Virus record (IMG/VR): IMGVR_UViG_3300042569_001270
Coordinates: 17,340-81,339 of that record
From: a virus
DNA: 64,000 nucleotides
Strand: one strand, 5' to 3'
Part shown: piece by piece, positions 15,083 through 64,000 of the stretch
How the letters are laid out: each line of letters opens with the position of its first letter
How positions within the stretch are numbered: the first letter of the stretch is position 1
Translations under genes and position numbers: made by a program
Notes under the pieces: model-generated
What the model was told of the DNA's origin: nothing
Seen by the model: only the letters and a program-made list of their open reading frames with translations
The model's database searches: none

Positions 15083-17440
15083 ATGGCAGCGCCTTCTCGT
15101 CCTCTTAATAAAAGGCATGACACCCTTATTCAAGAGGCTCTCAAGCAGCAGAACACCATCTACACTGAAGAGCAGCAGGCTCATGTAGATTACAAAGCTG
15201 CGCTGAAGAACCGCGACAAGGACATCGGGACGTTCCGCGATGCACGGCATAAGCTCAAGCGTGCGGAGGCCGCGTCTAACAAGTACAGCTCTGCCCTGAT
15301 CGACTCTATTAAGACAAACGCCGCTGCGTTTGAGGGCATCTACGATACTTGGGAAGACCTTATTAAAGCCAACCGCCGCTTTGAAGCAAACATGAAGCAG
15401 GCGGGAGGCGACCTCCGCAGGTCACAGCGGAAGAACTCCCAGCAAGGCTTCCAGCGGCAGATGATGCTCCAAGCCGGAGCGCAGGGCGTCAACGCTATCG
15501 CGGAACTGAGCACCGTCAATAGGCTCCCTGTCATCGGTGGTGCCATTCAGAGCGGTGTCGGTACTGCCGTCAACGCGGGCCTCATGGGAGCGGGGGCGAC
15601 AACAGCAGCGGCGATGGGCGGTTTGGCGTTCTTAGGTGCTGGGATCGCTGGAGGCGTTGCTAACGCCTACAACCAGTTCGAGAGCGAGGAGGCTCTTGAG
15701 CGTCAGCTTGGGCAGCGTATGGGCGTCGGCGCAGGCCGAGGCTTCATTCGCGACATGCGCAAGCAGGGTCTCACCCGCGAGCAGATCGGTGGGCTTGGTA
15801 GCGGGCTGTCCCAGACTGTTGGATCAACCAGCGAGGCTGTAGGCGTCTATCAGATGCAGACGGCTTTTGGGATCAATCCAATGGGGGCGATGGGGGCGAT
15901 GGCCTCCACTGGTCAGGGTAGCCAGCTCCGCATGGTTCAAAACGCGATCAGCGTAGGCATGGCGCAAGGCCTTGCTCGTGGTCGCTTTGGCGAGATGGTG
16001 GACGGACTGCAGCACCTCGTTCGTCAGCAGGGGATTGGCGTCGGTGTTGGCGGTGAGGAGCTTGGCGGGACACTCGGCTACATGGGTGCGCTGGGCAGCC
16101 GCATGGGTATCAAGGGTTCACAGTTTATGGGCGTGATGGGGCAGCTGGACGCCTCTGCTCGCGGCAAGACTGGTGGCCTGTCTGAGAGCATTAGCTTCCT
16201 CTCGGCCTACAACTACTTGCAGGCTGGGGGTCGAGGTGCGCTGGAGGGTCTCGGCTCTTCCGGTTCTGGTGGTCGGGTTACACCCTTTGACGTTCAGGAG
16301 ATGATGGAGCGGGGATCAACCGGCAAGGGGGGTATGGGTCGTATTCAAATTACTAACATGCTGGAACAGTACCGGCGCATCGCTGGTACGTCCGCTGCTG
16401 ATATGGAGATGTCAGCACGCAGGGCGAAAACTCCTGAGGAGCAGGCGCAGATTGACGCTGCCAAGGGGCGCTACCAGATGATGCAGCAGGGTCTGGTGAC
16501 CGGTGGCGCTGCTGCCAACCTGACAGTTGCTCGCCAGTTGACCGACGCTTTCCTCACAACCGGAAACATTAGTGATAAAGACATCAAGACTGCGCAGGAC
16601 GCTGGTAAGTCTCAACAAGAAAAGTCGTTCGACGAGATTCACGAGCAGACCGGTCTACAGCAGCGCATTGCCTACGGTATCGAGGCCCTTGGGCGCAGCA
16701 TGCCGGGCACAGGCGGCACGTTTAATCGCACGTTTGAGGGCCTTTTGGCAGGGCTTAACGGTGAAGCCGCTACTAGGTTTATCACTCCGGGCGAGCGGGC
16801 AGCAGGGTACTTTAACAATGACGACTCATCATACGGTGAGGCTCGCTTTTCTGAAGGGCGTGTAAAGCTTTATCAAGAAGCTCAAGCTCGCCGTCGTGCA
16901 GAGTTTAAGAAGCAAGGGTGGGATTACTGGGAAGACCCAAGTGACTTTAACCTTGTTTACGAGCCTTCTAAAGAAGGTCGCGCACTACAAGATTTTAACA
17001 AAAACGGTGTAACCGAGGATTTTAAGTCTCTGCTCTCGACGTTTACTGAGACCATTACTAACGACCCTGCCGTAAGTGAGGAAATGAAGGCCGCCGCTCA
17101 GGCGGCACAAGGTATGCTGCTTCGTGAGATTGCTGACCCCGCAACGGAGCTTCGTAACTTTAAGGGTATGGGCGGCGGCGTAGTCCCCCTCAAGGACTCT
17201 GCAGGCGGACAGTTTACGCCCGAGCAACTGGCAAATATCGCTAACGTTGGCGGCGGACTTGCCGACGTCTTTGTTGGTGGTGTGGGTAGTAGGAGTATTG
17301 AGGACTTGCGGGCTTTGACCTCTCAGTTGGCGAGGGGTGAACTTTCCCTCCCCAGTATTCAGCGGTCAGAAGATGTGATCCAATTTTACGTTAAAAGGCT
17401 CCAAGAGCTTCAGCCCCTCCCCGGTCAAGCCACGAGGTAG
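15083..17440 (+). CDS. Tail tape measure protein
   Basis: The 785-residue product follows the chaperone pair and precedes the baseplate genes. It has a charged helical N-terminus (about residues 1-130), a small-residue hydrophobic segment at about 150-195 (AGLMGAGATTAAAMGGLAFLG) and long Gly/Ala/Met-rich helical repeats. This is the expected composition of a tail length ruler that is ejected and crosses membranes. At about 1.5 angstrom per residue it predicts a tail near 120 nm. It starts behind AGGGAG. Confidence 0.88.
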   Translation: MAAPSRPLNKRHDTLIQEALKQQNTIYTEEQQAHVDYKAALKNRDKDIGTFRDARHKLKRAEAASNKYSSALIDSIKTNAAAFEGIYDTWEDLIKANRRFEANMKQAGGDLRRSQRKNSQQGFQRQMMLQAGAQGVNAIAELSTVNRLPVIGGAIQSGVGTAVNAGLMGAGATTAAAMGGLAFLGAGIAGGVANAYNQFESEEALERQLGQRMGVGAGRGFIRDMRKQGLTREQIGGLGSGLSQTVGSTSEAVGVYQMQTAFGINPMGAMGAMASTGQGSQLRMVQNAISVGMAQGLARGRFGEMVDGLQHLVRQQGIGVGVGGEELGGTLGYMGALGSRMGIKGSQFMGVMGQLDASARGKTGGLSESISFLSAYNYLQAGGRGALEGLGSSGSGGRVTPFDVQEMMERGSTGKGGMGRIQITNMLEQYRRIAGTSAADMEMSARRAKTPEEQAQIDAAKGRYQMMQQGLVTGGAAANLTVARQLTDAFLTTGNISDKDIKTAQDAGKSQQEKSFDEIHEQTGLQQRIAYGIEALGRSMPGTGGTFNRTFEGLLAGLNGEAATRFITPGERAAGYFNNDDSSYGEARFSEGRVKLYQEAQARRRAEFKKQGWDYWEDPSDFNLVYEPSKEGRALQDFNKNGVTEDFKSLLSTFTETITNDPAVSEEMKAAAQAAQGMLLREIADPATELRNFKGMGGGVVPLKDSAGGQFTPEQLANIANVGGGLADVFVGGVGSRSIEDLRALTSQLARGELSLPSIQRSEDVIQFYVKRLQELQPLPGQATR

Positions 17441-42693: not shown

Positions 42694-42768
42694 CCTCTAC
42701 AGGTTGTGGTGCTGAGGAGCACCTACACAAGGGGCAGCGGACCCTTATTTCCGCGCAGGAGTGATCCC

Positions 42769-44730
42769 ATGCAGCCTTCTCAGCAGTTCGTCTACGTCCG
42801 CACCTACGCCCGCTGGCTCCCCGATCTGGAGCGTCGGGAACTCTCGTGGGAGGAAACGGTTGATCGCTACCTCAGCTTCATGCGTGGCACCTACGGCGAC
42901 AAGGTCCCTGCGAAGGTTTGGGACAAGATCGCCAAGCACATGAAGGAGCTTGGGTCTGTCGGCTCGATGCGGGCGACGTGGACTGCTGGGTCGGCCCTGA
43001 GCGAGAACCACATCTCGGCGTACAACTGTGCCTACCTGCCCTACATTGATCTCAAAGCAGTGGCCGAGCACCTCTACATTCTCATGCATGGGACAGGCGT
43101 CGGCTTCAGCACCGAGAAGGAATACATCGATCAGATGCCTGAGGTCCCGATGCAGTCTTCTGCGGGGGCTGGTGTTCATGTCGTGGCCGACTCCAAGGAG
43201 GGCTGGGCTGAGGCCCTGCATTTCGGTCTCTCGGCTTGGTTTCTTGGGCTGGACGCCGAGTTCGACTACTCACAGGTCCGCCCCCGTGGTGCACGGCTCA
43301 AGAAGTTTGGGGGCCGCGCCTCTGGACCGGACCCGCTGAAGAAGCTGCTGGAGTTCGTGCGCGCCACGATCATGGGTGCACAGGGTCGTAAGCTCACTTC
43401 GCTGGAGTGGCTCGACATCGGCAACATGATCGGTGAGGTCGTCGTCGTTGGCGGCGTTCGTCGCTCTGCGGAGATCAACTTCAGCGATCTCAACGACCAG
43501 CTCATTCGGGACGCCAAGAAGCACCCGTTCCCAGTGCACCGCTACATGAGCAACAACAGCGTGGCCTACAAGGTCAAGCCCTCCGTCGTGGAGTTTATGA
43601 AGGAGTGGACGGCTCTGGCCGAGAGCGGCTCCGGTGAGCGCGGCATCTTCAACCTGCACGCCATCGAGAACCATCTCGCCAAGCATGCCAAGCGGCGTAA
43701 GTTTGATGCCGACTTCCGCTCGAACCCGTGCGGAGAGATCATTCTTCGCCCGTTCCAGTTCTGTAACCTCTCGGAGATTATCGTTCGCTCTGACGACGAC
43801 TTCGACAACTTGATCGAGAAGGTCGAGGTGGCGACGTGGCTGGGCACCATGCAGGCCGGTCTGACGGACTTCAAGTGGTTGCGTCCTGAGTGGAAGAAGA
43901 ACTGCGAGGAGGAAGCCCTCCTCGGCGTCAGTCTCACCGGTCAGATGGACAACATGGAGCTGATGACCCCAGAGAAGCTCGCCATTCTCAAGGCCTATGC
44001 AGTCAAAGTGAACGCCAAGGCCGCTGCGGCTATCGGGATCAACGCTTCTGCGGCCATTACCACCGGCAAGCCCTCGGGCACGGTCTCCCAGCTGGCTCTC
44101 TGCGGCTCGGGGGCGCACCCGTGGTACGACCAGTACTTCATCCGTCGGTACCGGATCAGCGCTACTGATCCCGTCTTCCGCATGCTGCGCGATCAGGGCT
44201 TCAAGTTCGTCCCTGAGAACGGGCAGGGGCCGCTGGACGTTGAACGCCGACGGCACGCCCTCATGGGAGAAGGCTGGTCTCCGTCGCAGATTGAAGCCCT
44301 TGCCCCAGCGTGGACCGAAGAGCAGGTCAATACTTGGGTGGTCGAGTTCCCCACGGAGGCCCCTCAGGGCGCAGTCACCCGTCACGAGGTCTCCTGCATC
44401 GACCAGCTGGAATGGTACCTGCGGATTATGAAGCACTGGTGCGAGCACAACCAGTCGATCACCGTTTATGTGAAGGACGACGAGTGGTTGAAGGTCGGTG
44501 CTTGGGTTTACGATCACTTTGAGGAGCTAGTCGGTGTGAGCTTCCTCCCGTACGACGGCGGCAACTACACGCTGGCTCCATACGAGACGATCACGAAGGC
44601 GGAGTACTTCCTTCTGAAGGGCCGTCAGCCCGAGATCGACTGGTCGCAGCTTCCCGTCTACGAGAAGATGGACATGACCGAGGGGGCCAAGACGCTCGCC
44701 TGTACTGGAAACACTTGCGAGATGACTTGA
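42769..44730 (+). CDS. nrdJ: Adenosylcobalamin-dependent ribonucleoside-triphosphate reductase (class II)
   Basis: The 653-residue product matches monomeric class II reductases (Lactobacillus leichmannii RTPR type): the NPCGEI motif with C321, C332 (FCNLSEI), C87 in AYNCAYLP, and the C-terminal CTGNTC pair (C645, C650) that passes electrons to the active site. It makes dNTPs from NTPs and needs coenzyme B12 and no oxygen. The ATG at 42769 follows GCAGGAG; an earlier in-frame start lacks a ribosome site. It is followed by a terminator and by thyX. Confidence 0.92.
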   Translation: MQPSQQFVYVRTYARWLPDLERRELSWEETVDRYLSFMRGTYGDKVPAKVWDKIAKHMKELGSVGSMRATWTAGSALSENHISAYNCAYLPYIDLKAVAEHLYILMHGTGVGFSTEKEYIDQMPEVPMQSSAGAGVHVVADSKEGWAEALHFGLSAWFLGLDAEFDYSQVRPRGARLKKFGGRASGPDPLKKLLEFVRATIMGAQGRKLTSLEWLDIGNMIGEVVVVGGVRRSAEINFSDLNDQLIRDAKKHPFPVHRYMSNNSVAYKVKPSVVEFMKEWTALAESGSGERGIFNLHAIENHLAKHAKRRKFDADFRSNPCGEIILRPFQFCNLSEIIVRSDDDFDNLIEKVEVATWLGTMQAGLTDFKWLRPEWKKNCEEEALLGVSLTGQMDNMELMTPEKLAILKAYAVKVNAKAAAAIGINASAAITTGKPSGTVSQLALCGSGAHPWYDQYFIRRYRISATDPVFRMLRDQGFKFVPENGQGPLDVERRRHALMGEGWSPSQIEALAPAWTEEQVNTWVVEFPTEAPQGAVTRHEVSCIDQLEWYLRIMKHWCEHNQSITVYVKDDEWLKVGAWVYDHFEELVGVSFLPYDGGNYTLAPYETITKAEYFLLKGRQPEIDWSQLPVYEKMDMTEGAKTLACTGNTCEMT

Positions 44731-49772: not shown

Positions 49773-50753
49773 CTACTTGCGCTTGTACTTCGCCTTCTTG
49801 GCTTCCTTGGCCGCTTCCACTTCCTTGGCCGAAGGAATCTTCACACCCTTGCCCCACACCACGTCGAAGATGGTCTCACGGAACGACGTGGGAGCCACCT
49901 TGTTTTTGATGATCTTGGCGCGGACTCGGATGCCGGTAGGCTGGTTGTTCGTCTTGAGAATGTCGATCCTGCGAAGGTCCATACGAACCGACGCGTAGAA
50001 CTTGGGACCGAAGCCGCCCGAGGTAGTCTCTGGGTTGCCGAACACCATGCCGACCTTCATGCGAATCTGGTTCGTCATTATGAACAAGCAGTTACGCTTG
50101 CTCGCAATAGACGAACAGGACCGGCACAGCTCGCTGATCAAACGAGCCTGCACGCCCATGCCGCTCTCACCGTCGAGAACCTTCTGAGGCACCATCGCGT
50201 CGAGCGAGTCGAGAACGACGATGTCACAGAGGGCTGCAAGGCTCTTGGAAGCCTCGACAGCCTGCTCTCCGTTGTCCGGTGTGATGACCAGCAGCTTGGA
50301 CACGTTCACACCCAGCTTGCTGGCGTAATGGAGGTCCAGTGCGTGCTCTGCGTCGATGAAGCCGCAGACCGCGCCGTGCTTCTGAGCGGTGGCAATCGTG
50401 GACAGGGCGAGCGTCGTCTTGGAGACCGACTCCGGCCCGAAGATTTCCACCATGCGGCCCTTGGGAAAGCCTCGACCGCTCCCCTTGACGATCTCACCGT
50501 CCTTATCAACGGTGCCGCTGATGAAGTCGTCAATGCCTTGGTGGCCGGTGCTGAAGCACTCCACCTGTGCGAGGTCCTCAAGGGCTTGGACCTTAGCAAA
50601 CTCACTCAGGCCCTTCATCTTGCTGATGGCCTTGAACACCGAGTCAATGTCGATCTCAACCTCCTCCTCGCCAGCAGGAGTCTCGGGAGCCTCCTTCTTC
50701 GTGAGCTTCGCGGTGAAGGTTCCGTGCGCTGTCTTCTTCCTTGGTCTCGGCAT
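49773..50753 (-). CDS. recA: RecA/UvsX-like recombinase
   Basis: The 326-residue product has the RecA core: Walker A GPESVSKT at 106-113, a Walker B-like DIVVLDSLDAM near 180, and FIMTNQIRMKVGMVFGNPETTSGG near 225-250. The usual glycine before the Walker A lysine (GPESSGKT) is Ser, as glycine is also absent there in T4 UvsX. The ATG at 50753 follows GAGGAGACG; a longer upstream frame is not supported. It would catalyse strand exchange in recombination-dependent replication with the SSB encoded just before it. Flanked by terminators. Confidence 0.9.
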   Translation of the reverse strand: MPRPRKKTAHGTFTAKLTKKEAPETPAGEEEVEIDIDSVFKAISKMKGLSEFAKVQALEDLAQVECFSTGHQGIDDFISGTVDKDGEIVKGSGRGFPKGRMVEIFGPESVSKTTLALSTIATAQKHGAVCGFIDAEHALDLHYASKLGVNVSKLLVITPDNGEQAVEASKSLAALCDIVVLDSLDAMVPQKVLDGESGMGVQARLISELCRSCSSIASKRNCLFIMTNQIRMKVGMVFGNPETTSGGFGPKFYASVRMDLRRIDILKTNNQPTGIRVRAKIIKNKVAPTSFRETIFDVVWGKGVKIPSAKEVEAAKEAKKAKYKRK

Positions 50754-50766
50754 GGTCGTCTCCTCG

Positions 50767-50800
50767 AAAGAAAAGTGGGCGGCCCGTCCACTCCGCCCAC
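50767..50800 (-). terminator. Terminator between SSB and recA (minus strand)
   Basis: A perfect 8-bp stem on the minus strand (50800-50793 with 50782-50775) and a 10-base loop are followed by TTTTCTTT. It lies between the SSB stop and the recA start, probably lowering recA relative to SSB. Confidence 0.8.
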
Positions 50801-50840
50801 CACGCTGGCTCCTTATCAACCAGCTCCCTTAGTCTGTGAT

Positions 50841-52362: not shown

Positions 52363-52581
52363 CTACCACGGGGGGCGGACATGGCTGGTTTGGGGGCGGG
52401 CTGGTGCCGACGGTGACTGCACTCCGGCCAGTCCTTTTAAGGCTACTCGTATGGAGATACCCAGCTGTGTGAGCCTGATTTTCACAAGGCGAGTGTTGGG
52501 CAGTGCCTGTAGTCCTAGCTTGGCTGAGCGCCAAGCCATTCGCACACCGCTGCGCACCATCGGCCAGTTGGGTTTGATCAC
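52363..52581 (-). CDS. Small basic protein, 72 aa
   Basis: A GTG start at 52581 overlaps the polA TGA stop (GTGA) and lies behind GGAGG, so it is translated after the polymerase. The product is rich in Arg/Lys with few acids (MVRSGVRMAWRSAKLGLQAL..., LVKIRLTQLG) and ends Pro-rich. Its high charge suggests DNA binding. It could be a polymerase accessory factor, but no family is recognised. Confidence 0.6.
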   Translation of the reverse strand: MIKPNWPMVRSGVRMAWRSAKLGLQALPNTRLVKIRLTQLGISIRVALKGLAGVQSPSAPARPQTSHVRPPW

Positions 52582-54590
52582 TTTGCCTCCCTCCAGTTGC
52601 TTGCAATCGAGCCGCCAACGCCAATCGGTACCTGCAAGTTCAGTACCCGCATCGGGGCCTCAATCATAATCTTGTTGATCTTGGCCTCGTCTTCCTTGGC
52701 GTCCTTCTCGTCGCACTCGAAGACAAGCTCGTCGTGGACCTGCAGGAGCAGCTGAGATTTGATCTCTCCTCGCTGGTAGGCCGCGTCGAGTTCGCACATG
52801 GAGACTTGGATCACTCGTGCAGCCAGTCCCTGAATCGGGGCGTTGATGGCAGCACGCTCAGCGTGTTCCCTGTGCTTACGGCTCTGCGAGAAGATTTCCG
52901 GCAACCGGCGACGAGTACCAGCCAGCGTCGTGACGTAGCCGTCCTTGCGAGCCTGCTTGACCACGCTGTCCATGTAGACCGCGATGCCGCCGTAGGTGTT
53001 GAAGTAGAGGTCCATGCGCTCAGCGGCCTCCTCTTCAGTGATCTTCATACGCTTGGCATAGGTCTGAACGCTCATGCGGTAGTTCAGCGAGAAGTTCGTC
53101 TGCTTGCCGACGGCGTACTCCTTGTCGTGCTCAGCCTTGAACTTTTCCAGCCACGCCTTGTAGTCCTTCGTCACCTTCTTGGTGATGGGATCAACCTTCA
53201 CCTCTGGGTAGGGAAGGCTGAACAGGGCGGCTGCAGTCTTGGCGTGAGCGTTCTCTCCTCGCTGAAGGAGAGCCACCAGCGTAGCGTCCCCGCTGACCTC
53301 TGCGATACCGGTGAGTTCGATACCGCTGTAGTCCTTGACGATCAGGACCTTGCCCTTCCGAGCTGTGAAGGCCGACCGGATACCGTACGGGTCCTTCTCC
53401 TTACGAGCAGGAATGTTCTGAAGGTTGGGCAGCGGCGGGTCAGCGTTACGGTCACCGGAGGACAGGCGGCCAGTCTTGGCACGAGTCTGGTTGAACCTCG
53501 TGCGGCAGATGCCATCACCTTGCGCTCTGACCTTCATCATCAGTCCGTCGATAAAGGTGTTCTTCAGCGTGGTGACGCCAGCGTGATCAAGGAGCCACTC
53601 AGCCAACTCGAAGCCGTGCTCTTCTTTGTAAATCTGCATGGCCTCAGCGTCGAGTGACGGGTTCTTGTCCCCGCTCTTGGTCTCGTTGCCCAGCTTGACG
53701 ATGGGCCATCCAAGCTCATGGAGCAGCAGCTTCTTCTTCTGATCGTTGGACGCCATGTTGAACAGCGGCTTACCGATCTCACTGCGGAAGACGCACTCAA
53801 TGCGAGCCTGTTGAGCCTCGACCTCCTTGCCGATGGCTTCCATCATGCGAAGGTCAAGCCGGATGCCTCGCTTCTCCATGCGGAGAAGGACGAACGTGAA
53901 CGGGAGTTCCCACTTGCGGTACCACTCCCACGTCCCCTCTTCGATCATCTGCTTCTTGTGCTTGAGGTGAACCATCACCGAAGCCCAAGGGTCCTCGCCG
54001 GAGTACTCGTACAGCTGCTCGCGGGTTGTGGAGATCAACGGATTCTTGTTGGCCCACACCGTCCACAGGTCCTCGACCTCCCACTTGTTCTTGGCCGGTG
54101 TCCCGTCCTTCTTCAGCGGGGCATAGCCGAACAGCTGCTTGAACTGGCTCATGGCATAGCCAGTGACCTCCTTCATGTTCTCCTTCAAGCCGTGGGAGAG
54201 CCTGTTCTCGTCGGTGTAGAAGCTCTCCGTCACCGTGTCTCCAACCCACGACTTCTCGGCTACGGGGAACCCGTTTTCGCGGAAGACTTCGGAGTCGAAC
54301 TGGAGGTTTGATCCAACCTTGCGAGCCTTGGGGTTGGCGAGCCACTTGGCGTAGTGGTGCGTGAGGTTTCCGTGAACAACCACGCGTAGCTTGCGGGAAT
54401 GATCATAGTACGACCAGATGATGATCTGACGCTTACAGCCAGCAGGAGCGTCCCATTCTCTATAAGGACTGTTGGGGTTGGCGGTCTCGGAGTCGAGACC
54501 GTAGAGACTGGTTTCGTCCATCTCAGCGACATCAGCGATTGCCTCCTTGTCTGTCTTGATAACTCTCAGCGGCGGTACGGTGATCGACAT
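52578..54590 (-). CDS. polA: Family A DNA polymerase with 3'-5' exonuclease
   Basis: The 670-residue product has exonuclease motifs GLDSETA (D33, E35), SNLQFD (N95, D99) and YSGED, then polymerase motif A DYSGIELTGIAEVSGD, motif B K..NFSLNYRMS and motif C VHDELVFE. Two changes are notable: the usual Q in DYSQIEL is Gly, and the usual YG of motif B is YR. No 5'-3' exonuclease domain is fused; that activity is encoded separately at 62605. It starts behind AAGGAGG. It is the replicative polymerase of this phage. Confidence 0.92.
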   Translation of the reverse strand: MSITVPPLRVIKTDKEAIADVAEMDETSLYGLDSETANPNSPYREWDAPAGCKRQIIIWSYYDHSRKLRVVVHGNLTHHYAKWLANPKARKVGSNLQFDSEVFRENGFPVAEKSWVGDTVTESFYTDENRLSHGLKENMKEVTGYAMSQFKQLFGYAPLKKDGTPAKNKWEVEDLWTVWANKNPLISTTREQLYEYSGEDPWASVMVHLKHKKQMIEEGTWEWYRKWELPFTFVLLRMEKRGIRLDLRMMEAIGKEVEAQQARIECVFRSEIGKPLFNMASNDQKKKLLLHELGWPIVKLGNETKSGDKNPSLDAEAMQIYKEEHGFELAEWLLDHAGVTTLKNTFIDGLMMKVRAQGDGICRTRFNQTRAKTGRLSSGDRNADPPLPNLQNIPARKEKDPYGIRSAFTARKGKVLIVKDYSGIELTGIAEVSGDATLVALLQRGENAHAKTAAALFSLPYPEVKVDPITKKVTKDYKAWLEKFKAEHDKEYAVGKQTNFSLNYRMSVQTYAKRMKITEEEAAERMDLYFNTYGGIAVYMDSVVKQARKDGYVTTLAGTRRRLPEIFSQSRKHREHAERAAINAPIQGLAARVIQVSMCELDAAYQRGEIKSQLLLQVHDELVFECDEKDAKEDEAKINKIMIEAPMRVLNLQVPIGVGGSIASNWREAK

Positions 54591-54671: not shown

Positions 54672-55757
54672 TTACTGCGCCTTGACGCGGATCAGCTTCA
54701 GGACACCCTTCTCCTTCAGCTCCTCCGCCACGCCCTTGCACACTTCACCCTGCTCCGCCTTGTCGTCGGAGACAACGAAGACCTTCTGAATGGCCTCAAG
54801 GAAGAGCGGCTGGGTGACGCGCTGGTCCTCAGCAACGCCGTAAAGCTCGTTGACGAGATCAAACGCGCTGTCCGACGCCTTGAGCGGGTTCTCCTCAGAG
54901 ACCAGCTTGACGACGACACCATCACCGAACGGGGCGAAGGGGACGACCTTCTTCGTGAGCGAGGCCGTGACCGACGTAGCCTTGGCAGGGGCAGGAGCGG
55001 CCTTTTCAGCCTTCTTCGGGGCCTCCTTGACGACAGGGGCGGCCTTGGCGGGAGCCTTCTTCGGAGCAGGCTTCTCCTCCTCTTCCTCCTCTTCCTCCTC
55101 CTCTTCGTCCTCGTCGTCGGCTTCCGTGTCCTCGGAACCCTCAAGCTCCTCGTCCTCGTCAACCTCCTCAGCGTCGTCCTCGTCCTCCTCCTCGGTCTCC
55201 TCGACCTCCTCAGCCTCCTCCTCGTCCTCTTCGACCTCCTCGATCTCGTCGTCTTCGAGGGCGATGGTCTCCTCCTCCTCGACCTCCTCCGGCTCGGGGG
55301 CCTTCTTCTTCTTGACCTCCTTGACCGGCTCGACGGGGGCAGCAGCCTTCTTCGCGTTCTTGATGTCCTTGGCCATGATCTTCTTCCTCTCTTCTTTCGT
55401 GAGTCCTTCCTTGGACTCGGTGAGTGACGAACCGCCTTTGATGATTTGCGCTACCGACGTCTGGAGTGTGTGAAAGCACTCAGCGGCGAACGCACACTTC
55501 TCAGCACAGTAAGGCTCCCGTGCAGAAAAGTACCTACCGAAGCACTGCTCTTTACTAACGACGTGTTGTGGTGGCTTCACCTGCTCGTACGGGTGATTCT
55601 TGATTATGGCTCGTCCGTCATCGACTCTCCTATTCTCCATCCATTCCATCATGGTGGAGCGCTGTTCCTCAAGCTCGCCGGTTGCCGGTGTGCCTAGCAG
55701 TCGGACGAGTTTGGGGAGTTGTTCATCGGTGGCTGTTGCGAGTTGTTTGGTGAGCAC
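54672..55757 (-). CDS. Acidic low-complexity protein with N-terminal Cys4 site, 361 aa
   Basis: The GTG start follows AAGG. Residues 70-94 hold four cysteines (C72, C84, C88, C94) in QCFGRYF...CAEKCAFAAEC, a metal-site layout shared with other phage proteins of the CFG..Y type. Residues about 155-240 are almost continuous Glu/Asp, followed by Lys/Ala/Pro repeats and a folded C-terminal domain (about 280-361). The composition suggests a DNA-mimicking or protein-binding scaffold that works with the polymerase. Function not known. Confidence 0.6.
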   Translation of the reverse strand: MLTKQLATATDEQLPKLVRLLGTPATGELEEQRSTMMEWMENRRVDDGRAIIKNHPYEQVKPPQHVVSKEQCFGRYFSAREPYCAEKCAFAAECFHTLQTSVAQIIKGGSSLTESKEGLTKEERKKIMAKDIKNAKKAAAPVEPVKEVKKKKAPEPEEVEEEETIALEDDEIEEVEEDEEEAEEVEETEEEDEDDAEEVDEDEELEGSEDTEADDEDEEEEEEEEEEEKPAPKKAPAKAAPVVKEAPKKAEKAAPAPAKATSVTASLTKKVVPFAPFGDGVVVKLVSEENPLKASDSAFDLVNELYGVAEDQRVTQPLFLEAIQKVFVVSDDKAEQGEVCKGVAEELKEKGVLKLIRVKAQ

Positions 55758-57599: not shown

Positions 57600-60254
57600 C
57601 TACGCGCCGTTACGCTTCATCGCACTCAGCAAGATGCGCTTGAGTTCCGTCGCAGCGAGCAGCGGCGTCTCAGCGACCTCGTTGATAACGATGCATTTGT
57701 CGTAATACTCTTTCGCGGCCTGCTCCTGCATCGACAAGCAGATCACCTCGATACCGGAAGCTTGAACCTGCTTCACGATGTCCTTGAGGTACTGACGGTG
57801 CTTATTGGTGTTGAAGTCTGACGGTTCAGGGATACCGTCGTCCACCATGAAGATCACCTTCCGCTTCTCACGACGAGCAGCAATGTCTTCAGCCACCCTA
57901 CGCAGGGCCTCACCGTCGTAGGTGTTGGAGCGGGGCTGCATGCGGACCATCTTGTGCTTCACAGCGGCCCACCGTTCCTCCCAGCCCTTGTACTCAGTCA
58001 GGATCAGAGCACCGAGTCGGGTGTAGTGGTGAAGCTCACTGCGATTGATGGTTGCCACGGATCGAGCGTTACTGCCGATGACTCCGTACATACCGCTCGC
58101 CGCTGTCGGCTCTGCTGTGTGACCGACGACCCGGAACGGTACGTTCAAGGCCCCCAAGGTCTCACCGAAGATCAACGCCACCTCTCGTGCCAGTTCCATG
58201 CGTGAGAGGTAGCCGTGGCCCATACAGGCACCACGCTTGATGCACTTGGGATCAGTCACAATCCTCTTGGGGCGGTTGTACATGTCCTTTGCGCCAGAAG
58301 GATCAACCACCTCGCACCGAAGATACGAGCCGGTCTGCATTGAACCGGACTCGTTCACACAGAGAGCGACACACACCTCGTTGTTGTTGAAGGTGTACGT
58401 CGTCCGCTTGAAGACCCGACCACTATCGTCGGTGTCTTTCAAGGCGAACTTGTAGAGGTTGGTAAAGTCGAGATCACCATCCTCCAAGTTACGCATGTGG
58501 CGGGGCTTTGACTGCGTGGTCAGGATCGACTGCAGCTTCCGCTTCATCACGCCGATGTGAGCGTCGGCCTTCCTCGACATCTTGTCGTAGGTCGCCTTCT
58601 CTCTCACCTCGTCGATCAGGTAGTTTGGCATGAGGAGTGGCATGAGATCGTCAATGTGACCGACCTTGTCCCACTCGTTGCTAAAGACGCGGTAGCTGTC
58701 GCCGCTGTACTTGCTCTGGCTAAGCTGCGTAGCGGCCTCGTCTTTGATCAAGCTCTCGATGCTGTACTGGTCGCCACTGGTACCGTTGGGGTTGTTCGGG
58801 TCTTCAAGCTCGTCAAAGCCCCACAGATCGTTGGGCCTGACAGGGCTTGCTGACTCCTTGGCGTTAGGATCACCCGCACCTCCCCCTGCGTCGCCTTCCT
58901 CCAAGTTCGCTTTGTACTCCTCGCCGTCCTCGTCCTCGTCGTCACCACCGGACGGGCCTACGCCATCAGAGCCATCACCGTCGTCTCCGTCTCCTCCTTC
59001 TTCGTCGTCCTCTCCATCGCCGTCCTCTCCATCGCCATCATCGTCCTCTTCCTCGTCGCCGCCCCCGCCGCCCTGACCTTCGGCGTCACCATCGCCCTCA
59101 TCACCTTCTCCTTCATCGTCGTCGTCACCGTCTCCATCACTGCCGTCATCGCTTCCGTCACCATCTCCGTCTGAGTCGTCCCCAGCATCTCCCTCGTCAT
59201 CGTCTCCGTCATCTCCGTCGTCATCGTCATCGTCTTCATCATCCCAATCACGTCCTCCACCCTCTGCAGGATCAGAATCTTCTTCATCGTCTCCGTCGTC
59301 TCCGTCGTCGGACTCAGCAGCCACTGCAGATTCGGAAGGCTCGTCTTCATCGTCATTGTCGTTCTCCTGTTGTGCTTGCTTCTTGAGCTTGTTGGCTTCT
59401 TCTTGGATGATCTGTTGAAACGAGGACTGTGCATTGTTGACAAGCTTGAGCTTTTCGATAATCCGCTCAGCGATGTCGTAGCACTCCTTGGTGGACTGCG
59501 CCCTGACACAGGCCGTGATCTCGGGCTTCAGCTCCTCCAGTACCTTCTGGTACAGCGGGTGAAGGCCCTTGAAGTACCAAGACTTTTGGTACTTACCGCC
59601 ACGGTCTGCGATGTCGAGGAAGCAGGTGAGAATCCTCGCAACAGGAGGCAGCTTGCTCCACCTGTCAGGCTCCACCAGCTTCCGTAACGCCCACTCCGAC
59701 TTGTTAGTGAGATCGACAGCAACGCCAGCCCACAGCTCCTTCATCTTCTTCTCGATGAAGGCGTCCTCGACGCAGTTCCAGACGATCTGGTGCATCTTGG
59801 AGCGGTTGACGAACTGACGTTTTTTGATCTCGCTAAAGTCAGTGTAGACGACGTGACCGACTTCGTGGCTCACGAACCCACGGATAGCCTCAAGGAACTC
59901 AGCTGCTCGCTTCTGTTCCTCCGGCGTCATGCCCTTCCGATCAAGGATTGAAAGGTCGGGAATGACGATGAGGTTGCCGTCCGTGTAGCACTCGGTCCCA
60001 CGACAGACCAACCGGACCTTCTTCTTACTGAGAAGACCGGAGAAGACCTCCAGCGCTTTGCGGAAGGTCTGAATCTCGTGGTTGAGGCCGTTGACACCGA
60101 CTCGGGCACCGCGCCCTTGGATGATAATCTCACCCTCAGGCTTCGGCGGCGGCCAGTTGTTGATCTCATCAGCCAGCAAGTTACCGCTTGAGGTCGCTGA
60201 GCTTGATGTTGGTGAAGCTGAACTTGCGCTGTTGGGGCTTTGCGGGCTGCTCAT
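57600..60254 (-). CDS. cobT: CobT-like VWA protein with HExxH motif and long acidic linker
   Basis: The 884-residue product has a Ser/Pro-rich start, a CobT-like N-terminal domain with HEVGHVVYTDF at 130-140 (HExxH), a long low-complexity acidic linker (about residues 295-475), then a C-terminal VWA domain. The MIDAS motif reads VNESGSM near residue 633: Asn replaces the usual first Asp of DxSxS. A second site DDGIP lies near 820. The AAA+ partner is two genes upstream. The ATG at 60254 follows AAGGAG but overlaps the zinc-protein gene by 74 bases; an internal start is possible. Likely partner of the MoxR-type ATPase in remodelling or chelation. Confidence 0.82.
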   Translation of the reverse strand: MSSPQSPNSASSASPTSSSATSSGNLLADEINNWPPPKPEGEIIIQGRGARVGVNGLNHEIQTFRKALEVFSGLLSKKKVRLVCRGTECYTDGNLIVIPDLSILDRKGMTPEEQKRAAEFLEAIRGFVSHEVGHVVYTDFSEIKKRQFVNRSKMHQIVWNCVEDAFIEKKMKELWAGVAVDLTNKSEWALRKLVEPDRWSKLPPVARILTCFLDIADRGGKYQKSWYFKGLHPLYQKVLEELKPEITACVRAQSTKECYDIAERIIEKLKLVNNAQSSFQQIIQEEANKLKKQAQQENDNDDEDEPSESAVAAESDDGDDGDDEEDSDPAEGGGRDWDDEDDDDDDGDDGDDDEGDAGDDSDGDGDGSDDGSDGDGDDDDEGEGDEGDGDAEGQGGGGGDEEEDDDGDGEDGDGEDDEEGGDGDDGDGSDGVGPSGGDDEDEDGEEYKANLEEGDAGGGAGDPNAKESASPVRPNDLWGFDELEDPNNPNGTSGDQYSIESLIKDEAATQLSQSKYSGDSYRVFSNEWDKVGHIDDLMPLLMPNYLIDEVREKATYDKMSRKADAHIGVMKRKLQSILTTQSKPRHMRNLEDGDLDFTNLYKFALKDTDDSGRVFKRTTYTFNNNEVCVALCVNESGSMQTGSYLRCEVVDPSGAKDMYNRPKRIVTDPKCIKRGACMGHGYLSRMELAREVALIFGETLGALNVPFRVVGHTAEPTAASGMYGVIGSNARSVATINRSELHHYTRLGALILTEYKGWEERWAAVKHKMVRMQPRSNTYDGEALRRVAEDIAARREKRKVIFMVDDGIPEPSDFNTNKHRQYLKDIVKQVQASGIEVICLSMQEQAAKEYYDKCIVINEVAETPLLAATELKRILLSAMKRNGA

Positions 60255-60663
60255 TCTTGGTCTCCTTGGCCTCGACGGCCTTCGTGGTTTCCTTGGCAGT
60301 GGTCGTGTTCTTGGTGGGCTGAGTGGGCGTCGGCTCCGGCTCCTTCACGGTGGCCGGAGCGGTGGGAGGTGTCACCTTGGCGGGCTTCTTCCCCCCGAGA
60401 CCCACCGAAACAGTGGGCGGCGGAGGGAAGTTCGGTGTCGTGGTTCCACCGCTAACAGCGATGAAGTCAACGGCGCAGGGGTTGTAGTGCATGATCTTGG
60501 AGGTCGTCTTGTTCCAAGCGATCATGCTCCCTACTGGGGCCGCTGAGCCACACACCGAGCACTTGTTGGGGAACTTTGCATTGATCGGAATCCACCCAGC
60601 GGCTCGAAGGTCCGTTCGAGCCTTGGTGTCTTCCGCTGGCGTCAGGTTCTTAGCTGTCTGCAT
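60181..60663 (-). CDS. Zinc-finger protein with Pro/Thr/Lys-rich tail, 160 aa
   Basis: Three cysteines and a His (C35, C38, H59 and C63 in NKCSVCG...HYNPC) suggest one zinc site, followed by a Pro/Thr/Lys linker and a short basic end (FSFTNIKLSDLKR). It lies between the AAA+ and CobT-like genes, 16 bases after the first. Position implies an adaptor that may bring the ATPase-VWA complex to a target. Its stop overlaps the CobT-like start region. Confidence 0.6.
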   Translation of the reverse strand: MQTAKNLTPAEDTKARTDLRAAGWIPINAKFPNKCSVCGSAAPVGSMIAWNKTTSKIMHYNPCAVDFIAVSGGTTTPNFPPPPTVSVGLGGKKPAKVTPPTAPATVKEPEPTPTQPTKNTTTAKETTKAVEAKETKNEQPAKPQQRKFSFTNIKLSDLKR

Positions 60664-60678
60664 CGTCGGCTCCTTGGA

Positions 60679-61767
60679 TTAGACGGTTCCCGTGTTGCCC
60701 TGCTCCTCCTCTTCCGGGGTGGAGGAAGAGGGGAAGGCGACACGAATGATCTCAGTAACGGCGGCCTTCGTCGCTTCTGACGGGTAGCCGTTGAGGAAGG
60801 TGAAGAGAGCCGCCACCTGAACGTCACCGAGGTTCTGGTAGGTGTCGACCCAAGCGAGCAACTCACGAGGCGACAGGGACTCGTCAAGTTCGCCGGTCTT
60901 GAACTTCGACCGGATGGCGTCGGCCACCTTCACGAACTTCTTGGCCTCGCGCTTACCAAGGTCAGGGAACTCCTCAGTGAGAACCTTGATCTCGTTCTCT
61001 TCGCTGAGGTAGTCCATCTGAATCTTAATCGGGAAACGCTGACGGTCAGGGACGGACATGACGTTCGTGGTGCGGAACAGACCGGTCTCGTCACCGGCAC
61101 CGAACGTGTTGGCCGTGGCGATAATACGAAAGTCGGGGTGCGCCTTCACCAGCTCACCCGTCTCCGTAATCATAATGTGGGGGTTCTCCTCAAGGACCGA
61201 GCGGAGGACGGCCATGACGTCGGGGTTGGCCGAGTCGATCTCGTCGAGGATGATGCAGGCACCGAAGCGCATCGCCCTAACGAGCGGCGAGTCCACGAAC
61301 AGCGTGTTGCCGTTACGGGCCTGCCAACGACCAACCACCTCGGAGCGGCTGGTGCTGGAGTCGAACGACATACGGGTGAACGGGTACTTGATCGCCGTGA
61401 GGACGTTGACGGCCAGCTGCGTCTTACCGGTACCGGCGTAACCGGCGATCCAGATTCGGTTTCGCTTGGTCCGGTTGAGGGAGAGCAGGACCATCAGCGT
61501 CTCGGTCTCGGGGAAGATGTACTTGGAGTCGGGCTTCACAGCGAACCACTCAGCAGGGGGATCATTCTCGAAGACGTCGATGGCCAACTCGTCGCCCTCA
61601 GCGTCGAGGCGGGAGAAGCCGAACAGCGCCTTGACGGTCTTGCTGGTCTTGTCGCGGGTCCAAGTGATGGTCGGGGTCGTGGTGGTCGTCGCGGTCATGG
61701 TGTTCTCCTCTTCGGTCGTGGTGGTGGGCTTACGGGTGAGGGTGTTGGTGCTGTTCGCGGTGGTCAT
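60679..61767 (-). CDS. cobS: MoxR/CobS-like AAA+ ATPase
   Basis: The 362-residue product has Walker A GYAGTGKT at 109-116, Walker B CIILDEIDSA at 171-180, and a sensor segment ATANTFGAGDETG. This is the MoxR/CobS type. Such ATPases work with a VWA partner, here the CobT-like protein two genes downstream. The start follows AGAGGAAA. It may drive metal insertion, as CobS-CobT do for cobalt, or chaperone-type remodelling. Both genes in one operon and the B12-dependent reductase in the same phage make the first idea tempting but unproven. Confidence 0.85.
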   Translation of the reverse strand: MTTANSTNTLTRKPTTTTEEENTMTATTTTTPTITWTRDKTSKTVKALFGFSRLDAEGDELAIDVFENDPPAEWFAVKPDSKYIFPETETLMVLLSLNRTKRNRIWIAGYAGTGKTQLAVNVLTAIKYPFTRMSFDSSTSRSEVVGRWQARNGNTLFVDSPLVRAMRFGACIILDEIDSANPDVMAVLRSVLEENPHIMITETGELVKAHPDFRIIATANTFGAGDETGLFRTTNVMSVPDRQRFPIKIQMDYLSEENEIKVLTEEFPDLGKREAKKFVKVADAIRSKFKTGELDESLSPRELLAWVDTYQNLGDVQVAALFTFLNGYPSEATKAAVTEIIRVAFPSSSTPEEEEQGNTGTV

Positions 61768-62546: not shown

Positions 62547-62604
62547 ATAAAAACGCTGGCTGGCCCAAGGCGTGCATGCTACGCTGCCCCAAGGAGGCTC
62601 CAAC

Positions 62605-63519
62605 ATGAGCAAAGACTTCGACCTCGTAGTTATCGACGGCAACAACATGGCCCGCCGCCTTCAGTACGCCCACTCCGACCTGAGCATCAACGTGCCTGAC
62701 GGAGAGGGGAAGGTGCGGCCACTCCCCACAGGAGTCCCTTACGGCTTTGTGGTGCAGCTTGTTAAACTCAAAAAGCTGGCTTCTAGGATTATCGTTTGCT
62801 GGGACGGCGGCAGGAAGATTAGGGCCGACATCTACCCTGCCTACAAGCAGCACCGAGTGGCTCCGCCTGAGGAGGCAGAAAAGCTTTATCAAGAAGCCCT
62901 CGCCCTCACTAAGACGCTGCTCACAGACCTCGGCGTGGCGCAGACCCAGTTGAAGGGGCACGAGGCTGACGACGTGGCCTACTCGCTGGCGAAGGACGCA
63001 GCCACCAGCGGAAAGAAGGCTGTGATCGTCTCCAACGACTACGACTTTCTGCAGGCTGTTACTAAAAATCTTTCTGTCTACGCAGCCCGAAAGGGCACCG
63101 ACATTCTCTACACGGAGCAGAGCTTCACGGAGGAGTACGGGTTTCACCCCAAGCACTGGCTCGACGTCATGTCTCTCTGTGGCGACAGGACCGACAACAT
63201 TCCGGGCGTCAAAGGTGTGGGCGAGAAGTCGGCCATAGACATTGTTAAGAGCGACACCGGCTTCGTGAAGGCTGTCTGTGCTGGCACGGCTCCTGCACCC
63301 TCGTCGCTGCCGAAGCGTTTGCAGACGTTGATGCAGAAGGCCGTGGACGCCGCCGACGATGTTCGGCTGGCTCGTGAGCTTGCAAGGCTGCGTCTGCTGC
63401 GGCCCATAAAGATCACAGAAGGAGCACTCGACGCGAAGAAGGTAAGGCTCACCCTCAACAGGCTCAACATCCAAAGCGTACTCACCGACAACGAGCAGTG
63501 GAACGCACTCATCAACTAG
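62605..63519 (+). CDS. 5'-3' exonuclease (RNase H/FEN family)
   Basis: The 304-residue product has the FEN nuclease motifs: VVIDGNN near residue 10, CWDGGRKIR near 65-73, KGHEADDVA at 118-125, SNDYDFLQ near 143-150, then GDRTDNIPGVKGVG. It removes RNA primers and flaps, complementing the polymerase, which lacks this domain. The ATG at 62605 follows AAGGAGG; the frame is open a little further without a better site. It opens the rightward operon. Confidence 0.9.
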   Translation: MSKDFDLVVIDGNNMARRLQYAHSDLSINVPDGEGKVRPLPTGVPYGFVVQLVKLKKLASRIIVCWDGGRKIRADIYPAYKQHRVAPPEEAEKLYQEALALTKTLLTDLGVAQTQLKGHEADDVAYSLAKDAATSGKKAVIVSNDYDFLQAVTKNLSVYAARKGTDILYTEQSFTEEYGFHPKHWLDVMSLCGDRTDNIPGVKGVGEKSAIDIVKSDTGFVKAVCAGTAPAPSSLPKRLQTLMQKAVDAADDVRLARELARLRLLRPIKITEGALDAKKVRLTLNRLNIQSVLTDNEQWNALIN

Positions 63520-63527
63520 GAGACAAA

Positions 63528-64000
63528 GTGATCATCCCCATCATCTCAGACATTCACGTTCACAACTGGCGGGAGTTCTCGAAGCTGGACTCCGACGGCG
63601 TACCAACCCGACTCAAGGACACACTCAAGCCGTTCCAAGAGCTTCGCGCTTACATGAAGAGGAACGACCTCACCACGGCGTTCTGTGCCGGTGACGTTTT
63701 CCATAAGCGCAACGTGATTCAGACGCAGAGCTTCAACCTCGCCTTCAACACGGTCGCTCGCTTTGCACAGGAGAACCTTGACCTGTTTATGATCCCCGGC
63801 AATCACGACCAAACGACCAAGGACGGGCAGCTTCACTCACTGCAGCCTATGGCCGAGGTCGCTGCGGTGTTCAGTACGCCTATTGAAAAGGACTTCGGGG
63901 ACACGACCGTTGTCTTCATGCCGTTCTTGGACGACGCACAGGCCACGAAGGACTTTCTCAACGGTCTGCAGCGGCCCAAGAAGGCCAAGCGGGTCATCCT
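63528..64000 (+). CDS. SbcD/gp47-like metallophosphoesterase, 3' end outside window
   Basis: Starts at GTG behind AGGAG, eight bases after the exonuclease stop, and runs off the right edge with at least 157 residues. Motifs of the nuclease family are in order: SDIHVH (D8, H10), AGDVFHK (D56) and IPGNHDQ (N92, H93, D94). In T4 the gp47 nuclease works with gp46 ATPase to process DNA ends for recombination; a gp46 partner may lie to the right. Confidence 0.88.
   Translation, partial: MIIPIISDIHVHNWREFSKLDSDGVPTRLKDTLKPFQELRAYMKRNDLTTAFCAGDVFHKRNVIQTQSFNLAFNTVARFAQENLDLFMIPGNHDQTTKDGQLHSLQPMAEVAAVFSTPIEKDFGDTTVVFMPFLDDAQATKDFLNGLQRPKKAKRVI

Follow-up and report, generated by a model that had tools for sequence, protein, structure and literature searches.

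Why would a phage carry genes resembling the CobS and CobT subunits of cobaltochelatase? This question is raised by the virus contig IMGVR_UViG_3300042569_001270 (81,339 bp), of which positions 17,340 to 81,339, a stretch of 64 kb hereafter called the window, were analysed. On its minus strand lies a tandem trio encoding a 362-aa AAA+ ATPase, a 160-aa CCHC protein, and an 884-aa CobT-like protein with a von Willebrand factor A (VWA) domain. An initial annotation, made from the sequence alone, named the two outer genes a MoxR/CobS-like ATPase and its CobT-like VWA partner, properly kept both metal insertion and protein remodelling in play, and raised a link to B12 supply. The present analysis confirmed all three open reading frames (ORFs) and their shared strand, found the naming correct by homology, and indicated that the pair is probably an AAA+-driven VWA-metallopeptidase machine that remodels or processes proteins in the replication/recombination module of the phage, rather than a cobaltochelatase.

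Homology of the pair and the peptidase motif of viral CobT

The ATPase has Walker A (GYAGTGKT) and Walker B (ILDEID) motifs and matched AAA_5 (E = 1.6e-25) and phrog_249, labelled "porphyrin biosynthesis" (E = 6.9e-61), while the 884-aa protein matched the CobT_C VWA family PF11775 (E = 1.1e-13) and phrog_1576 (E = 6.2e-73). Neither reached the equivalog cut-off of its cellular namesake: the ATPase scored 135.7 bits against CobS TIGR01650 (cut-off, 559 bits) and its partner 21.4 bits against CobT TIGR01651 (cut-off, 759 bits). A MoxR-type AAA+ gene adjoining a VWA gene is the arrangement of MoxR/VWA pairs, and it is repeated in the reference phage loci. The ATG of the cobT gene (60254) sits 74 nt inside the small ORF, with AAGGAG 7 nt upstream.

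An HExxH motif and a huge acidic linker, both pointed out in the initial annotation, are indeed present in the 884-aa protein. HEVGH occupies residues 130-134 and is followed by N160..E163-D164...E168, and residues 297-490 hold 96 Asp/Glu against 4 Lys/Arg among 194 residues. Judging from sequence and predicted helices, the protein thus combines HExxH with Glu on a downstream helix, as gluzincins do, and departs from CobT-type N-domains, which lack HExxH. AlphaFold2 modelled the N-domain of the window protein with a predicted local distance difference test score of 78.7 and that of an Acinetobacter relative with one of 93.8; the two models alike comprised a helix, three strands, the HExxH-bearing helix, and a helix with Glu residues. 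The top two Foldseek matches of the Acinetobacter model in the PDB were the minigluzincins abylysin (4jiu, E = 0.32) and jannalysin (4jix, E = 3.2), neither of them significant; in BFVD, the named significant matches were other viral CobT/VWA proteins.

Motif conservation was assessed by aligning 18 full-length proteins and then 287 dereplicated CobT-like proteins, reduced to 236 by thinning one group and examined as separate N-domain and VWA alignments; cellular genome contigs were scanned with a single cellular CobT as query. The phage samples are mutually related, and their counts do not represent independent events. HExxH plus the downstream Glu occurred in 48 of 58 viral CobT proteins picked through an adjoining cobS, hence without selection on the motif, and in 14 of 17 reference phage and plasmid elements (HExxH alone, 15 of 17). 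Viral copies found by a CobT pattern had the second His in 61 of 66 cases, a biased figure, as the pattern includes the motif's Glu. Moreover, both haloarchaeal viruses examined (HVTV-1 and HCTV-1, family Druskaviridae) carry HECGH...N..EDGAIE, and three Glu residues, one in HExxH and two in ED..IE, were invariant across 54 viral N-domains. A universal HExxH in viral CobT was nevertheless rejected, since Stenotrophomonas phages, hairong-like phages, and some others have lost the motif.

In the alignment, none of 79 bona fide cellular CobT proteins had HExxH; these comprised 30 top and 24 mid PF06213 matches, from a phylum sample around a Sphingomonas genome, and 25 from Sphingomonadales. Direct inspection of 76 Sphingomonadales CobT likewise revealed no HExxH. 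All 54 viral N-domains matched PF06213 at E-values up to 1 (best, 3.5e-18), and hhalign aligned the viral and cellular N-domain profiles at E = 7e-6, with VEDAFIE paired to VEQARVE and HEVGH paired to a cellular stretch without HExxH. As the viral and cellular N-domains are homologous, the difference in the motif is meaningful.

In addition, about six weak cellular PF06213 matches (L302, L303, L304, L306, L307, and L308), all CobT-like VWA proteins, carry HExxH, so that the metallopeptidase-VWA form is not restricted to viruses; a CobS-like ATPase is encoded near the gene in L302, L303, and L307. HExxH in L301 was dismissed as spurious, being located downstream of that protein's own E..RVE segment. 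The viral N-domain profile also matched the anti-CRISPR protein AcrIIA26 (PDB 9zq6_B, E = 2.8e-4) over the ED..IE helix, by common origin or by chance.

In a VWA tree, the sampled cellular CobT formed one clade (Shimodaira-Hasegawa-like approximate likelihood ratio test, 99), and the viral copies, including that of the window, fell outside. As such, capture of the viral gene from a host cobT was rejected. HExxH was likely lost on the path to cellular CobT, a statement that goes no further because the tree was quick and long-branched, with no inferred root.

Replication context and distribution

A dnaE-like gene starts 0.6-3.9 kb downstream of cobS in 50 of 50 dereplicated viral cobS loci whose downstream DNA extended for 4.5 kb or more. 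In T4-like phages the order is gp46-cobT-cobS-gp45, placing the pair between gp46/47 and gp45/44, and in the window the neighbours of the pair include RecA, a 5'-3' exonuclease, and an SbcD-like nuclease, together with a gene reading as DNA polymerase I. These three arrangements differ, indicating that the association with replication genes does not reflect one inherited gene order.

The same gene pair was found in phage collections in phages of Rhizobium, Stenotrophomonas, Pseudomonas, Roseobacter, Vibrio, and Gordonia, as well as in T4-like cyanobacterial and Pelagibacter phages and on SSU5-related phage-plasmids of Escherichia, Klebsiella, and Acinetobacter. Single-sequence searches of IMG/VR for close relatives returned one weak T4-like locus for the window CobT and none for its CobS. 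A Xanthomonas citri plasmid (L023, 694-7082) encodes an AAA ATPase, a DUF3150 protein, a vWA protein with HELGH, and a toprim gene, and is possibly a replication-linked relative. Furthermore, within a few kb of the pair, each of the two haloviruses bearing it also has a distinct gene for an SprT-like metallopeptidase (L336, 31534-32250; L337, 33698-34357).

Features of the window locus

The initial annotation reported Asn in place of Asp in the metal ion-dependent adhesion site (MIDAS) of the VWA domain. The substitution proved real and singular: the Asp was kept in 235 of 236 aligned relatives, and the window protein alone, with NESGS instead of the intact DxSxS, had Asn. It occurs together with an adjacent 40-residue Cys/His-containing insert and with VDDG in place of S/T-DG, neither of which was found among the aligned relatives. 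On this sequence evidence the region could plausibly be a rebuilt metal or substrate site or, equally plausibly, a decayed one, and as it derives from a single contig, the Asn codon could also be a base-calling error.

Most aligned phage CobS (L003, L004, L005, L008, L009, L021, and L022) have a zinc-finger-like CxxC..H..H segment at the N-terminus. The window CobS lacks it, and the window encodes a separate CCHC protein. The latter shows the pattern C35-x2-C38-x20-H59-x3-C63 and may bind zinc; profile searches gave it no significant family match and a single-sequence search no relatives in IMG/VR. Next to the DNA polymerase-like gene, the window encodes another strongly acidic protein (361 aa, 54672-55757), whose only family matches are of low-complexity type.

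Table 1. Annotated features of the locus and its surroundings, in window coordinates
Feature	Position	Strand	Basis
CobS-like MoxR-class AAA+ ATPase, 362 aa	60679..61767	-	ORF and family matches
Small CCHC protein, 160 aa	60181..60663	-	ORF, sequence reading
CobT-like protein, 884 aa (metallopeptidase-like N-domain, acidic linker, VWA)	57600..60254	-	ORF and family matches
CobT-like N-domain, residues 55-290	59385..60092	-	Model: helix, three strands, then helices bearing HExxH and Glu
Putative zinc motif HEVGH, residues 130-134	59853..59867	-	Sequence
NCVEDAFIE, residues 160-168, Glu helix, putative third ligand	59751..59777	-	Alignment
Acidic low-complexity linker, about residues 297-460	58875..59366	-	Composition
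Pre-VWA region and VWA, about residues 540-876 (PF11775 at 686-876)	57627..58637	-	Profile match, alignment
MIDAS motif NESGS, residues 634-638, Asn for Asp	58341..58355	-	Sequence, alignment
40-residue Cys/His-containing insertion after MIDAS loop, residues 642-681	58212..58331	-	Alignment
VDDGIPE, residues 804-810, Asp for Ser/Thr preceding VWA DG	57825..57845	-	Alignment
B12-dependent RTPR-like class II ribonucleotide reductase	42706..44730	+	Profile matches
DNA polymerase I-like gene	52578..54590	-	Read from translation
RecA	49773..50819	-	
5'-3' exonuclease	62572..63519	+	
SbcD/gp47-like nuclease, truncated by window end	63498..63998	+	

Cobalamin context

Viral cobST genes have been read as cobaltochelatase genes, with hijacking of host CobN put forward for Druskaviridae (Liu et al. 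2021, PMC8651126), and they are also treated as B12 genes elsewhere (PMC5083919). Applied to the window, this reading would have viral CobS and CobT work with the CobN of the host and boost cobalamin for the class II ribonucleotide reductase (RNR) of the phage. Both proteins are homologous to CobS and CobT, and the B12-dependent reductase noted by the initial annotation is there, scoring 247 bits against RTPR TIGR02505 (under the 340-bit equivalog cut-off) and matching the RNR family phrog_367 at E = 5e-147. In addition, haloarchaeal host cbi/cobN transcripts rise during HFTV1 infection (PMC12542753), which points toward a B12 role in such virus-host pairs.

The comparative evidence runs the other way. 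The check for fuller cobalamin genes that the initial annotation had proposed turned up no CobN (PF02514) in the window's own record, which may be incomplete, nor in any other of the 19 cobST-bearing records (16 further records and two haloviruses), although a host CobN could serve in its place. Nine of the first 17 records encode both NrdA and NrdB, a class I, B12-independent RNR, and one each encodes the large or the small subunit alone; the RTPR-like RNR of the window escapes PF02867, and a search with that RNR itself gave one weak further match. Moreover, 229 Escherichia plasmid records match phage CobT, and PF02514 gave no match in the E. coli control genome. The absence of CobN, the mostly class I RNR, and the abundance of plasmid cobT in a CobN-less host make a general B12 role of viral cobST unlikely, while such a role is possible in particular virus-host pairs (e.g., CobN-bearing haloarchaea, or the window phage with its class II RNR). 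With both subunits also below the equivalog cut-offs, HExxH retained in viral CobT and missing from true CobT, and the viral copies outside the cellular clade, the cobaltochelatase explanation appears unlikely for the window. The B12-supply link thus gains no backing from the comparison (no CobN, mostly class I RNR, CobN-less hosts, and HExxH) and is unrefuted here in view of the class II RNR.

Among 80 genomes with cellular CobT, 60 have the CobN/BchH family, so an invariable company of cobT and cobN was rejected for cells as well. The other 20 show no CobN/BchH family, and a Caulobacter control has CobT and no CobN match; cellular CobST may also have a role apart from B12.

Proposed function and alternatives

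By analogy with NorQD, the ATPase would form a hexamer in whose pore the VWA domain would dock, powered by ATP hydrolysis; the N-domain, tethered by the long acidic linker and holding a putative zinc site, would act on the bound substrate, clipping it, or only remodelling it where the motif is lost. Several observations weigh against such a replication-linked peptidase machine. The matches to solved peptidases lie below significance (E = 0.32), and the window N-domain model itself gave no meaningful Foldseek match in the PDB. About one in six viral copies have lost HExxH while retaining the pair and the MIDAS, so that proteolysis cannot be the sole function, and the MIDAS of the window is altered. 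Furthermore, the 50 of 50 loci with dnaE synteny all belong to a single broad group of related phages, and a B12 benefit is conceivable for a phage with a class II RNR.

The peptidase motif would also suit a chaperone or protease that processes or assembles structural proteins of the virion, as proposed for the same architecture in group 2.2 jumbo phages and for Acidianus two-tailed virus (PMC7824862). In the phage lineages examined, however, the genes adjoin those for DNA polymerase, RecA, exonuclease, and clamp, not head or tail genes, and a virion-assembly role is accordingly improbable. NorQD, the closest mechanistically studied MoxR/VWA pair, inserts iron (PMC13036017, PMC9976466), and many cobST phages encode an RNR, suggesting a metal-cofactor inserter for the phage's own RNR or another metalloprotein; yet in several cobST records the searches detected no RNR, and a pure inserter would give no reason for a conserved HExxH, which leaves this explanation very doubtful. 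A more far-reaching version of the replication-linked machine, to which we attach little weight, is that viral "CobST" would be a widespread AAA+-powered, minigluzincin-type replisome protease, a functional analogue of Cdc48-Wss1/SPRTN that strips or digests DNA-bound proteins, with cellular CobT either descending from it after losing the zinc site or sharing a peptidase-bearing ancestor with it. It builds on the synteny, the motif, the sub-threshold fold match, and the Wss1-Cdc48 precedent (PMC4559962).

In hundreds of phage and phage-plasmid records these genes bear cobalamin or porphyrin biosynthesis labels, and they enter ecological surveys as auxiliary metabolic genes. Should the pair instead be a replication-linked machine for remodelling or processing, claims of viral B12 metabolism need revising, and the CobT N-domain, viewed as a dead metallopeptidase, is offered a testable origin.

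Comparison with known systems

Cellular cobaltochelatase CobS/CobT (TIGR01650/TIGR01651; PDB 9uka and kin) shares with the window pair the AAA+ ATPase and the succession of N-domain, acidic linker, and VWA, with homologous N-domains; it differs in lacking HExxH (0 of 79) and in partnering CobN, which is absent from the window record. In NorQ/NorD, a MoxR AAA+ ATPase likewise works with a VWA partner, and the substrate of NorD is nitric oxide reductase. There, the hexamer holds a VWA finger in its pore, an arrangement published for NorQD and only presumed here; the rotation of the VWA relative to the N-domain varies, the MIDAS is required for acting on the substrate and dispensable for ATPase binding, and ATP-driven stretching of the linker is the published model (PMC13036017, PMC9976466).

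The minigluzincins abylysin and jannalysin and Wss1/SprT are HExxH peptidases whose order of helix, small sheet, HExxH helix, and Glu helix fits that of the viral N-domain, with a structural match that is sub-threshold. We know of no VWA partner for the minigluzincins.

The cobST genes of tailed viruses infecting archaea and bacteria are the same pair, and HVTV-1 and HCTV-1 share its domain order and carry HECGH. The "peptidase" label of a cyanophage protein was called mistaken by Liu et al. (2021, PMC8651126), whereas the peptidase motif was found conserved here. A pair of MoxR AAA+ ATPase and metallopeptidase-vWA protein has been reported in group 2.2 jumbo phages, with virion assembly proposed (Iyer et al. 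2021, PMC7824862). The likeness, one of architecture, lies in two genes, for a MoxR ATPase and a vWA protein that begins with a metallopeptidase domain, while the window differs in its 81-kb record, its replication neighbourhood, its altered MIDAS, and the intervening putative zinc protein. In the open-licence literature, no paper was found that joins viral cobST to MoxR/metallopeptidase-vWA or contrasts viral with cellular CobT. The present study joins these two literatures, and the window pair is a divergent member of the combined group.

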